Positions 1 through 4,031 of a DNA stretch of 49,744 nucleotides are shown piece after piece; the first letter of the stretch is position 1; every line of letters starts with the position of its first letter. Made by a program: the position numbers and the translations under genes. The notes under the pieces are model-generated. The model was not told where the DNA came from, did no database searches, and saw only the letters and a list, made by a program, of their open reading frames with translations. The DNA is taken from the NCBI GenBank assembly GCA_009777935.1, contig WRKU01000010.1, forward strand, positions 1 to 49,744, in the 5' to 3' direction. The stretch comes from Coriobacteriia bacterium (GTDB lineage Bacteria; Actinomycetota; Coriobacteriia; WRKU01).

Positions 1-139
1 TATCTGGTACAATCAGTGGCTGCGGTCTCCGGGCAACGCTGCCACTACGGCGGCTCGCGTGAACATCACTGGGGCCGTGGCGGGCGACATTGCTGCCACC
101 AATGTGCGTGGCGTGCGTCCAGCCTTGTGGGTTCGCTAA
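1..139 (+). CDS. 3' end of a DUF6273-like / C-type-lectin-fold-like protein (partial)
   Basis: The reading frame is open from base 2 to a TAA at 137-139 and is cut by the window edge. The 45 visible residues contain WLRSPGN, then AARVNITGAV, and end in GVRPALWVR. The order WLRSPG, a run rich in Ala/Asn/Thr, and a terminal GVRPAL is what I recall for the C-terminus of DUF6273-type domains in secreted or surface proteins. A small-residue-rich tail fixed on both sides is also how the variable region of DGR target proteins looks, and a DGR-type reverse transcriptase lies 2.3 kb downstream. The fold and the DGR link are inference. The N-terminus and any signal peptide lie outside the window. Confidence 0.6.
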   Translation, partial: IWYNQWLRSPGNAATTAARVNITGAVAGDIAATNVRGVRPALWVR

Positions 140-170: not shown

Positions 171-956
171 ATGAGGCGCCCACGACGAAGTGTTAATGAT
201 AGGTTAGAGCCAGCTCTCGATGTTCGAGAGCTGGCTCGCTTGGACGATTTATACCGCACCGAAGAGCGCTTACGGCGCCAGCGGGGGTACCGGTTCATTG
301 CCGGCGCGGATGAGGCCGGACGCGGTGCTTTAGCTGGGCCTTTAATGGTCGGGGTCGTCGTTTTAGATGCGGGCAAGGACGCTATCCCGTGGCTTGATGA
401 CAGTAAGAAAATGACGGTGCGGCGCCGGGCGGAAGCCTGCGAGCGCATCAAGGAAGAAGCGATAGCGTGGGCCGTAGGGTCTGCAGACATCCATACAATC
501 GATAAATACGGGCCTGATCACGCAGAAAGCGTGGCGTTAGTTGAGGCGTTTAAGGATGTAAAAACCCAGCTAGAAGGTGTTAATCCCGATATATTGTTAA
601 TCGATGGTGACGGTGCGCTTGAGTTCCCGTCAGACGACGTTGAGGTCGAATATTTGGTAGGCGGGGACAGTACGGTTGCCGTCATTGCGGCGGCATCGGT
701 AGTGGCGAAGGAAGCGCGTGACGAATACATGCGCCGGCTCTGTGAGCTGGGCGAAGGTAGCGAAGTGCTCTATAACTTCGATGTCAATAAAGGGTATCCG
801 ACGGCAGCACACATTAAGGTCATTAAGAAGCACGGGTTTTGTGAACATCACCGGCTACGGTACCTTAAGAAGCACATGCCGTACGAAATACTCACCGAAG
901 AGTACCAAAAACGCGAGAAAAAAATCGCCGCCAAGAAAAAGTTTTCCACAGGATAA
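171..956 (+). CDS. rnhB: Ribonuclease HII
   Basis: Cleaves the RNA strand of RNA-DNA hybrids and removes single ribonucleotides from DNA in the cytoplasm. The 261-residue protein has the family motif DEAGRGALAGP with catalytic D47 and E48, a third acidic residue D145 in LLIDGD and a fourth D184 in RDEYM. NKGYPTAAH follows, another type II signature. The roughly 40-residue N-terminal extension before the core resembles the longer Gram-positive form. The first codons contain the perfect hairpin at 207-237, so the ATG at 171 is only the longest choice and translation may begin further in. The Lys-rich tail (KKIAAKKK) is not part of the catalytic core. The gene stands alone. Confidence 0.93.
   Translation: MRRPRRSVNDRLEPALDVRELARLDDLYRTEERLRRQRGYRFIAGADEAGRGALAGPLMVGVVVLDAGKDAIPWLDDSKKMTVRRRAEACERIKEEAIAWAVGSADIHTIDKYGPDHAESVALVEAFKDVKTQLEGVNPDILLIDGDGALEFPSDDVEVEYLVGGDSTVAVIAAASVVAKEARDEYMRRLCELGEGSEVLYNFDVNKGYPTAAHIKVIKKHGFCEHHRLRYLKKHMPYEILTEEYQKREKKIAAKKKFSTG
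207..237. repeat. Perfect 14-bp inverted repeat (hairpin or cruciform)
   Basis: GAGCCAGCTCTCGA (207-220) is followed by TGT and the exact reverse complement TCGAGAGCTGGCTC (224-237). It lies 67 bases after the stop of the partial upstream gene and inside the first codons of the ribonuclease HII frame. No T-run follows, so it is not a classical intrinsic terminator. In the Bordetella phage DGR a DNA hairpin just downstream of the variable repeat is needed for efficient retrohoming. This one is in a comparable place relative to the putative target gene. Confidence 0.85.
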
Positions 957-1102: not shown

Positions 1103-2377
1103 ATGACCAAAAGTACCTATCTGCCGCGCCTGACTGATATCGATATTGAGCGTCAGCTCAGAGCAATGGGCGGCGTACTTATTGAGGGGCCCAAGTGGTG
1201 CGGGAAAACTCGTAGCTCACTTGAATTTGCACGTAGTGTTTTTTACACGACCGATAATCGAGATTTGGCGCGCACCTTATCCGATGAGGTGCTTATGGGT
1301 GCGACTCCTCGTCTGGTGGATGAATGGCAGCTTGAGCCTGTGTTGTGGGACAAAGCGCGCCGTATCATCGATGAGCGTAGTGTGCCCGGACAGTTTATCT
1401 TTACCGGCTCATCGACGGGCACGACACGTGCTCCTGCTCATAGTGGGGCAGGGCGTTTTGCACTTATTCGTATGCGCACGATGTCGCTGTTTGAATCAGG
1501 TGAATCGGATGGCTCGGTGTCGTTGGCACAGCTATTCGACGGTACCTCGCTTGAGATGCATCAGATAACAGCTAATCTGAAGACTGATATTCTCTGGGCA
1601 CTTACCCGCGGGGGGTGGCCGGCCGCTCTTTCGCTTGATCGAGATGCTGCCGGGCTGGTAGCAGGAAACTACGTTAAGCTTATTCAGCACCGTGAGAACA
1701 GTCATCAGGAGGACCATGCATCACGCAACGGTGGTGCGCGACTCGATCGTGCTAAGCAGACATTATTTGTTAGGGCGCTTGCGCGCAATGTGGCACAGCC
1801 GGTGAAGGTCTCGACGCTCATTGAGGATGTGCGCGAACGTGGGGGCACGCTGTCTCGTTCGACTGCGGACAACTATCTTAACTATCTTAAGAGCGTGTAC
1901 TTTGTAGAGGAACAGCCTGCATGGAGTGTGTCGTTGCGCGCAAAAACGGTTTTACGTCAGGCTCCCAAGCGCCACCTAACCGACCCATCCCTTGCCGTAG
2001 CAGCACTTGGCGCTTCGCCGGCGCAGCTGTTGCGAGACTTTCGCACGCTTGGCCATATGTTCGAATCATTATGCTACCGCGATCTGTGTATTTACGCACA
2101 GCATCTTGGCGGCGAGGTAGCACACTATCGTGATGCATCTGGTTTCGAGATAGACGAAATCGTCACGCTCTCTGATGGGCGTTGGGCGGCGCTGGAGGTC
2201 AAACTAGGTGATGCACAAATCGATGAGGCAGCACAACAGCTACGGACATTGACCGAGCGTATCGATACGCGCCATATTGGTGAGCCCGCATTTCTGGCCA
2301 TTCTTTATGCAGGACAGTATGCGTACACCCGTCCCGATGGGGTGCACGTCATACCGATTGCCTGCTTGAGCGCGTAA
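1103..2377 (+). CDS. AAA family ATPase with DUF4143-type C-terminal domain
   Basis: A 424-residue protein of the AAA_14/DUF4143 family, common in anaerobes and of unsettled function. Walker A is GPKWCGKT (29-36). A Walker B-like segment, PRLVDEWQ, lies near residue 72, followed by FIFTGSSTG, the usual sensor-like strand. The C-terminal part has FEIDEIVTL and WAALEVKLG near residues 345-365, an arrangement of acidic residues and ExK resembling PD-(D/E)xK nuclease folds, as seen in this family. It is preceded by GAGAGG (SD-like) and by the direct repeats at 992-1066. It converges on the reverse transcriptase gene with 14 bases between the stops. A second family member starts at 9760. Confidence 0.88.
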   Translation: MTKSTYLPRLTDIDIERQLRAMGGVLIEGPKWCGKTRSSLEFARSVFYTTDNRDLARTLSDEVLMGATPRLVDEWQLEPVLWDKARRIIDERSVPGQFIFTGSSTGTTRAPAHSGAGRFALIRMRTMSLFESGESDGSVSLAQLFDGTSLEMHQITANLKTDILWALTRGGWPAALSLDRDAAGLVAGNYVKLIQHRENSHQEDHASRNGGARLDRAKQTLFVRALARNVAQPVKVSTLIEDVRERGGTLSRSTADNYLNYLKSVYFVEEQPAWSVSLRAKTVLRQAPKRHLTDPSLAVAALGASPAQLLRDFRTLGHMFESLCYRDLCIYAQHLGGEVAHYRDASGFEIDEIVTLSDGRWAALEVKLGDAQIDEAAQQLRTLTERIDTRHIGEPAFLAILYAGQYAYTRPDGVHVIPIACLSA

Positions 2378-2391
2378 CGCGCGTCGCTACG

Positions 2392-3537
2392 TTACTCGTT
2401 GAGTGCGTTCTTGAGGTCCTGCTGCGCCCGATAGCGCTCCAGTGCCGCACCACGCAACGGCCGTGAAGGCTGATAGGGGTTCGGCGGGGTATGGAGCTCA
2501 AGAAGCTTCTCACGAAGACGGTAGGTATTGCCGTGGTAGAGATGCGCGAGGTAGCTGTTGACGATGGTATCGAGCTCGGCACGCTTGATGGGATCGTTGC
2601 CCATGTTCTTGCTTAATTTGCGCACATAGCGCACCATGCGCGTGCGGGTCGAGTTGCGTATCTTGCGCACGATGTAGCCGGTCTTCTTGTCGATGATGTA
2701 GCGCCAGCCGATCGCCTCCACACCATTTTTCATGTGCGTGATCTGGGTCTTACTGTTCAAGAAGAGGCCCAGGTCGTCTTCTACGTGCTCGGTGATGCGC
2801 GCCTTTACCTCTTGAAGATGCGCCTTCGATTCGTGCAGCACGATGAAGTCGTCCATGTACCGTATGTAGTGAGGAATACCAAGCTCTTGGGTGACCAGCT
2901 TGTCGACACTGTCGAGGTAGAGCAGCCCGTACCACTGGCTTGATTGGTTGCCTAGGGCGAGCCCTCTTTGAGGGGTACCCGGCGTGTGGAAGTAGTCGAT
3001 GAACTGGAAGCACAGACGCACAAAGCGCTCATCATCGACGCCGTACTCATGGAATGCTAAGAGCAGTTTTTCCTTGAGCTGCCGGTGAGGAATACTGGGG
3101 AAGAACTGTCTGATATCGCACTTCAGCGCATAAAAATCTCTCCCGTGCGTATCCCGGATGTCGGCGATAAAGCTCTCGAAGAGATCGAGCGTGAAGTGGC
3201 TGCCCTTTCCCTTCTGGCATGCTGCGTTCGCCTCGATAAGAGTGGCTCCGATGATGTCGGCCAGCGCGTTGTCGCACAACGAGCGCAAGACAACGCGGTC
3301 CCGATAGGGCGGGGCATAGATGGTGCGCGTCTTGGGGCGAGTCAGGGTGAAGCAGTAGTGTTTCTCCGGTTGATAGGTGCCTTGTTGGAGCTCGTCGGCA
3401 AGCCGTGCGAGCTCTATAGAGGCGTTCAGGTTGAACTGAGCAGCCTCCGTCTTCATCCGCTTCCCGCACAGTGAGCGACGCATGGCCTCATGAAGGCTGA
3501 GGAAATCGCTAATCTTTTCGTAATGCATAGTAACCAC
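2392..3537 (-). CDS. Reverse transcriptase, diversity-generating-retroelement type
   Basis: RNA-directed DNA polymerase of 381 residues. D141 in LKCDIRQFFPSIPH and YMDD (227-230) are the catalytic core. Between them LGNQSSQ (195-201) replaces the QGxxxSP of most group II and retron enzymes; the [IVL]GxxxSQ form is the hallmark of DGR reverse transcriptases. PPYRDRVV (76-83) and ACQKGKGSH (106-114) also fit that family. No maturase or endonuclease domain follows. The GTG start at 3537 overlaps the stop of the Avd-like gene by one base; an in-frame ATG lies at 3528. A DGR needs a template repeat, usually beside avd/RT, and I find none in the flanks. Confidence 0.87.
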   Translation of the reverse strand: MVTMHYEKISDFLSLHEAMRRSLCGKRMKTEAAQFNLNASIELARLADELQQGTYQPEKHYCFTLTRPKTRTIYAPPYRDRVVLRSLCDNALADIIGATLIEANAACQKGKGSHFTLDLFESFIADIRDTHGRDFYALKCDIRQFFPSIPHRQLKEKLLLAFHEYGVDDERFVRLCFQFIDYFHTPGTPQRGLALGNQSSQWYGLLYLDSVDKLVTQELGIPHYIRYMDDFIVLHESKAHLQEVKARITEHVEDDLGLFLNSKTQITHMKNGVEAIGWRYIIDKKTGYIVRKIRNSTRTRMVRYVRKLSKNMGNDPIKRAELDTIVNSYLAHLYHGNTYRLREKLLELHTPPNPYQPSRPLRGAALERYRAQQDLKNALNE

Positions 3538-4031
3538 TATCCTTTCTCATCGGTGGGACTTTCATCGGTGGAACTTCCCTTGGAGGGACTCTTGCCCGTG
3601 GGGCTTTCCGGCACACCCCAGCGCTTGAGATCACTGTCACGCCACGCGACGATCATCCAATAGAGGCTCGTAGACTTTTTGGCGATCTGCGTGTATTGCT
3701 TGCCGGTTATCGTTTCGAGCAAGAACATGACGTGCGCAAGACGAGTAAGGGAGTGCACGGCATGCTTCGCCTTGTTTTGGAGCCGGACACGTTCTTCGAG
3801 CTCGCTGAGGCGCGTCTTGTCGTCCATATCGGGCGACAGGAACACGTCGTTTGCACGAAGAATGTGGTCCATCGGCTTGAGCACCGCATTCTCCAGACGC
3901 ATTCCTAGGCTGCCGCGATTTGCCCGAGCCATCTTGCGGGTTGCCTGGAACGTATAGAGGCAGAGCTCCTCCGATACGTGCAGCACTTTGAGCTGCTCTC
4001 CGGGCAGGGGTTGATAGGGCGTAGTACTCAT
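3537..4031 (-). CDS. avd: Avd-like four-helix-bundle accessory protein
   Basis: A 164-residue, mostly helical and basic protein directly upstream of the reverse transcriptase and overlapping it by one base. Avd proteins form pentameric four-helix bundles that bind the RT and template RNA in DGRs. The order Avd then RT and the helix pattern (LYTFQATRKMAR, LENAVLKPMDHIL, RLARLAHVMFLLE-like segments) support this. The start is set at ATG 4031 (MSTTPYQP), preceded by AAGGAG; a longer frame runs to 4085 without a ribosome site. The C-terminal 25 residues are a low-complexity Ser/Pro/Thr/Asp tail (SPTGKS, STDESPTDEKG) beyond the usual Avd length, perhaps an unstructured linker. Confidence 0.75.
   Translation of the reverse strand: MSTTPYQPLPGEQLKVLHVSEELCLYTFQATRKMARANRGSLGMRLENAVLKPMDHILRANDVFLSPDMDDKTRLSELEERVRLQNKAKHAVHSLTRLAHVMFLLETITGKQYTQIAKKSTSLYWMIVAWRDSDLKRWGVPESPTGKSPSKGSSTDESPTDEKG

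Follow-up and report, generated by a model that had tools for sequence, protein, structure and literature searches.

The reverse transcriptase (RT) and Avd-like protein described here, judging from sequence comparison, are very probably the two protein components of a diversity-generating retroelement (DGR) whose template has split from the enzyme and multiplied into at least twelve template-RNA genes. Both are encoded in a stretch of 49,744 nt, hereafter the window, which is the entire contig C10 (WRKU01000010.1) of a 1.107-Mb metagenome-assembled genome (MAG; G000) of a Coriobacteriia bacterium, consisting of 21 contigs and 86% complete. A DGR usually has one constant template adjoining its enzyme, and it rewrites target genes at the template adenines. 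An earlier note on this DNA had recognised the DGR-type pair and seen no template in the window; it proposed either that the template lies to the left of the window or acts in trans, or that the pair does something other than classical mutagenic retrohoming. A template outside the window and acting in trans is supported by twelve template repeat (TR) elements on other contigs. The second proposal is not supported, adenine-biased repeats matching a variable repeat (VR) at the start of the window being present in the genome. The dispersed template family had been missed because the whole genome was needed to see it. The argument turns on the following features of the window:

1..122, + strand: VR, truncated 5' by the contig start and homologous to the twelve scattered templates
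1..139, + strand: 3' end of the target gene, in the frame ..NQWLRSPG..GVRPALWVR, then stop
2392..3537, - strand: DGR reverse transcriptase, 381 aa, complete frame with LGNQSSQ and YMDD
3537..4031, - strand: Avd-like accessory protein, 164 aa, with a low-complexity C-terminal tail

The membership of this system in the DGRs is solid. RTs of the DGR clade carry the motif (I/V/L)GxxxSQ where other RTs read QGxxxSP, and the window RT reads LGNQSSQ. Its best PDB match is the BPP-1 bRT (8ub7, E=3.6e-23), with group II maturases at 3e-7 and weaker, and it matches PHROG_1423 with E=9e-89. The group II intron RT/maturase model TIGR04416 gives it 71 bits against a cut-off of 300, and its scores with the curated NCBIfam families of retrons and defence-associated reverse transcriptases (DRT) all fall far under cut-off. 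Four other genomes of its class have RTs with about 40% identity to it. In three of these (the genomes G330, G354 and G229), and in a further relative, G290, whose RT is 33% identical, verified TR/VR pairs lie near the RT and show 0-1 non-A versus 11-18 A mismatches over 70 nt. In a phylogenetic tree, a check proposed in the earlier note, the window RT joins the RTs with verified TR/VR pairs, apart from group II RTs, on long end branches. We found no second RT of the DGR kind elsewhere in the genome.

Residues 12-144 of the Avd-like protein match PHROG_3206 ('Avd protein of DGR', E=1.1e-11); the NCBIfam Avd model gives the protein 17 bits, under the cut-off of 80, and no match to a solved structure was obtained. 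Its gene had been described as overlapping that of the RT. The two genes touch if the RT starts at the GTG at 3537, and are separated by a small gap if it starts at the ATG at 3528, which is the likelier start. The unusual low-complexity tail is real: it reads SPTGKSPSKGSSTDESPTDEKG and is encoded by short imperfect repeats at window positions 3540-3610 (-), just 5' of the RT start. A distant RT (25% identical) is present on the Aeromonas caviae plasmid NZ_AP022111.1 (L290), where the annotation of the divergent neighbour gene names a four-helix-bundle protein.

The gene end at 1-139, which had been suggested as the starting point for a template search, proved to contain the VR. A genome search with this segment returned 13 further near-copies. 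Only one of the 13 is coding: it occupies C6:1-105 (-), the 3' end of a 543-aa open frame (G000:C6:3-1631(-)). Contigs C6 and C10 both break inside the VR, and their VR pieces overlap, with about one quarter of the shared positions differing. Since a population hypervariable in one VR would break the assembly at that point, we infer from these sequences that the two contigs probably join within the VR of a single gene, of which the C6 open frame would be the front. The target protein carries a membrane segment at its N terminus and weakly matches SipW-dependent biofilm matrix proteins. The last 13 bases of the VR (110-122, GGCGTGCGTCCAG) form an invariant 3' end in which TR and VR agree, resembling the initiation of mutagenic homing (IMH) sequence. 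A perfect 14-bp inverted repeat with a 3-nt loop (window 207..237) begins 84 bp downstream of the VR end and is a candidate target hairpin or cruciform; in BPP-1, a hairpin near the VR, 4 bp from its end, assists target recognition (PMC3240598).

At 24 loci of this 1.1-Mb genome (for example C9:45728-50585, C15:1-4662 and C4:21546-26733) there are about 24 paralogs that share the N-terminal membrane segment of the target protein. A second class of gene ends (..WWSRSRG..GLRPALWVR) also varies preferentially at adenines: among the seven compared, 25/27 A columns vary versus 53/135 others (p=2e-7). A search for the template of this second VR class with a reconstructed pattern gave paralogous genes only.

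The other twelve near-copies, about 80-90% identical to the VR, are intergenic and share long flanks. They are spread over seven contigs, each holds a TR of about 130 bp matching the VR, and eleven are complete (372-398 nt), one (t_C7a) being truncated:

C6, 2404-2787, 5048-5432 and 37630-38024: three elements
C4, 48923-49310: one element
C7, 53712-54109, 54887-55258 and 55822-56206: three elements, plus the truncated copy near 52750-53046
C9, 47853-48225: one element
C11, 46183-46576: one element
C14, 2653-3028: one element
C17, 1476-1849: one element

Thus a near-repeat of the size expected of a DGR (100-150 bp), with the VR ending a coding gene, exists in this genome. A TR adjoining the RT gene, which is usual but not defining for DGRs, is absent here: in an A-tolerant scan of the window with 1-139, the best 60-nt stretch still had about 22% non-A mismatches, and the window gave no match to a covariance model of the template RNA. 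The nearest template is probably t_C6a, located on the other contig about 0.8 kb upstream of the target gene.

The elements share a layout of about 385 nt: a common start TG(T/C)TACACTAG resembling an extended -10 box, a 5' hairpin, the TR of about 130 nt, a spacer with conserved helices, and a GC-rich end hairpin which is not followed by a T-run. The DNA 5' of the start is mostly unrelated between elements. The RNA scaffold is supported by covariation, with 98.7% of pair cells kept and 20 double-sided changes; shuffled alignments averaged 8.6 such changes, none of 500 reaching the observed number, and slid controls were 37-52% paired with 1-5 changes. In one hairpin, three adjacent pairs switch together between GC/CG/GC and AU/UA/AU. 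The covarying spacer provides the structured template RNA downstream of the TR that is characteristic of DGRs. Genome-wide, a covariance model of the spacer retrieved exactly the twelve elements, the same set as the DNA search. In 400 genomes of the class it gave a single weak match, which lies inside a kinase-like coding sequence and was judged to be due to chance; Rfam searches of eight element loci gave no credible match, and no exact RNA motif was found in viral contigs. We also considered the elements as short protein genes. The TR frame relative to the upstream ATG varies among elements and stops intervene, so that the TR is not linked to any start; the elements are therefore RNA genes rather than protein genes.

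The sequences at the 3' junction indicate on which side of the exchange the elements stand. Homology between elements and gene spans TTCCGCCGCT..GTGCGTCCAG; past it the elements continue with ACTT(ACCC) and the gene with CCTT(GTGG), so that templates end CCAGACTT and the gene CCAGCCTT. In G330 the TR reads CCCGATTT at this junction and the VRs read CCCGCTTT, a change parallel to that seen here. A differing 3' junction between TR and VR (IMH*/IMH), another DGR feature, is thus present. It could nevertheless be argued that the elements are extra, noncoding targets of the DGR, since their TR segments are adenine-diversified as VRs are and are not AAC-rich. We consider this highly improbable: the elements bear the template-type junction (GACTT, as in the G330 TR) together with a covarying RNA scaffold, and on these grounds we rejected them as targets and read all twelve as templates. 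The comparison with G330 points the same way, as a search of that genome with its template RNA gave one full-length match and about 28 copies of the TR only, lacking the spacer; the three TR-only copies checked were all in open frames. The template-to-target ratio is thereby reversed, G330 having one template and many targets and the present genome twelve templates and one assembled target. The elements may still be both templates and targets, if templates receive complementary DNA (cDNA) too. For a single DGR, the approximately 28 VR-like copies that accompany the one AAC-rich template RNA of G330 (loci L249, L292-L296) are an unusually high number of targets.

Variation among the templates is concentrated at adenines. 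In the TRs of the eleven complete elements, 19/22 A-consensus columns vary versus 28/106 others (odds ratio 17.6, p=2e-7), whereas the flanks of the same elements show no bias (23/53 A columns versus 92/190 others, p=0.54). Variable TR columns fall mostly on first and second codon positions (20 and 19, versus 10 on the third). The adenine-biased repeats that the earlier note had asked for in the genome do therefore exist. A 3-bp length difference between TRs lies at an AAC-like site, and slippage within AAC repeats has been reported for BPP-1 (PMC12875486). Each template retains 1-7 AAY codons versus 11-16 in the four canonical TRs of the class; because of this scarcity the templates look themselves diversified, with adenines lost.

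Several observations weigh against a family of active template RNAs. A simple scan of one element detected no sigma-70 promoter and no T-tailed terminator. The covariance model gave no match at the RT loci of the relatives, at viral loci or in BPP-1, so that the case for a scaffold homologous to canonical DGR spacers relies on its position and on the 3' junction. The MAG being incomplete, a master template and further targets or RNAs may be missing from it. Finally, the single template nearest to the VR differs from it by 9 A and 10 other mismatches.

Because no single template yields the VR by A changes alone, either a mosaic step is needed or the parent template is unassembled; a TR/VR difference confined to adenines would be seen only if several templates contribute. 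A copying model reproduces the C10 VR from segments of t_C7c, t_C7d, t_C6a and t_C4, leaving three mismatches, each of them at a template A; for the C6 VR it leaves five, of which four are at A and the fifth at T. As this model favours A, we reran it favouring each base in turn and with equal costs. Adenine was the cheapest every time. With equal costs, 7/12 residual mismatches in the genes fall at template A, which makes up 16% of the sequence (p=0.001, on small numbers), as do 24/54 of those between templates (p=1e-6). A mosaic pattern, both in the VR and between templates, with many donors for one assembled target, is also what homologous gene conversion of the ordinary kind, with silent DNA cassettes as donors as in vlsE or pilS, would produce, the RT being unrelated or dead. 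Yet neither adenine-specific variation nor an RNA fold is expected of DNA cassettes, and RT and Avd are intact; gene conversion of this kind appears improbable to us.

The system could also be a classical single-template DGR whose AAC-rich master is absent from the assembly, the elements being old, inert template-RNA repeats. The 86% completeness of the MAG, the low AAY content of the elements (1-7 codons, versus 11-16 in canonical TRs) and the truncation of t_C7a are compatible with this scenario, and repeats resembling miniature inverted-repeat transposable elements (MITEs) are known near DGRs in Thiohalocapsa (PMC10907252). However, 11/12 elements are complete, their helices are kept by compensatory changes, and their start and 3' junction are invariant. 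Inert drift would not place the variation in adenine columns rather than others, and segments of the VR exactly match specific elements. A missing master with inert repeats thus seems unlikely, if less easily dismissed than a purely DNA-based exchange.

Returning to a split and multiplied template, the parts, the RNA fold, the TR/VR relation, the adenine bias and the mosaic pattern can be combined with what is known of BPP-1 into a putative mechanism. Each template RNA would be transcribed separately, and its spacer would recruit RT-Avd. Synthesis of cDNA would start at the 3' end of the TR, with errors opposite adenines, and the product would replace part or all of the VR ending the surface-protein gene (C6:1 / C10:1, window 1-139). 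Since the variable codons differ between templates, repeated rounds of partial retrohoming that draw on different templates would create mosaic VRs, and residual template adenines would supply new mutations. Judging from their diversity, the templates may also receive cDNA, by template-to-template retrohoming, or be overwritten by recombination from VRs. We tentatively envisage, with somewhat less than even confidence, retroelement-driven silent cassettes: a dispersed RNA-gene library would store pre-diversified templates, parts of these would be copied by the RT into one expressed surface-protein gene, and error-prone retrohoming between RNA genes would renew the library, making the template heritable and evolving rather than fixed.

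The system shares with the BPP-1 DGR an RT with Avd, a TR/VR of about 130 bp, adenine-directed variation, a TR/VR junction difference and a structured spacer 3' of the TR (PMC12875486). In contrast to BPP-1, where one TR lies between avd and brt, at least twelve TR RNAs act here in trans, as proposed above, and none is near the RT. With G330, G354, G229 and G290 it has in common an RT 33-41% identical and a C-type-lectin-like kind of TR/VR (LRSPG..GVRP), but the TRs of these relatives are AAC-rich and near the RT. More than one TR is also found in the multi-TR DGRs of MetaCSST, which have a few TRs on one DGR-containing sequence and include 'highly repetitive' cases with few A-to-N changes (PMC6642488), and in Treponema denticola, where TR variants occur between strains (PMC4891356); here, instead, the TRs sit in scaffolded RNA genes that form one family scattered over a single genome. 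Action in trans on remote targets has been inferred for the RT/TR of Thiohalocapsa PB-PSB1 (PMC10907252), where complete loci act on remote VRs and there is no template library. Borrelia vlsE likewise has one expression site, many variant donors and mosaic products (PMC11499132), but operates by DNA gene conversion without reverse transcriptase and with contiguous cassettes rather than separate RNA genes. In the literature covered, mostly open-access and without preprints, we came upon no account of scaffolded template RNAs forming a dispersed family within a single genome.

Toxin-antitoxin-like pairs (MazE/Fic, Phd/ParE, MazE/PIN and HEPN/nucleotidyltransferase) lie directly 3' of many template elements, on C4, C6, C7, C11 and C14. 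On C7, such modules and four elements follow one another in alternation at a spacing of about 1 kb, which recalls a cassette array. Several elements (on C9, C11 and C17) begin about 10-30 bp past the stop codon of a surface-protein gene of the second class; one is preceded by the mere last bases of such a gene (remnant C7:54109-54159), an arrangement suggestive of joint movement of gene end and template. Between the target gene end and the RT gene, the window contains two genes that are probably not part of the system, and a repeat that is possibly an operator:

171..956, + strand: RNase HII-like gene, between the target gene end and the ATPase gene, its translation recognised by eye
982-1066: imperfect tandem repeat CTCCACATTGTTACTACCTTAATCTCACTATTTTTGCTA, 5' of the ATPase gene
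1103..2377, + strand: AAA_14/DUF4143 ATPase gene (Pfam PF13635, E=1e-29; PF13173, E=2e-7), convergent with the RT gene

If our interpretation is correct, a DGR template can have the status of an independent gene, acting fully in trans, multiplying and being itself diversified, and this would explain why searches for a template near the RT fail in some genomes. DGRs would thereby be linked to variation from silent cassettes. Such elements would also provide a stand-alone template RNA of natural origin whose ends are defined, which could help to separate RT-Avd from its template. For the organism itself, variation of the surface protein would be stored as a template library besides being made by mutation.
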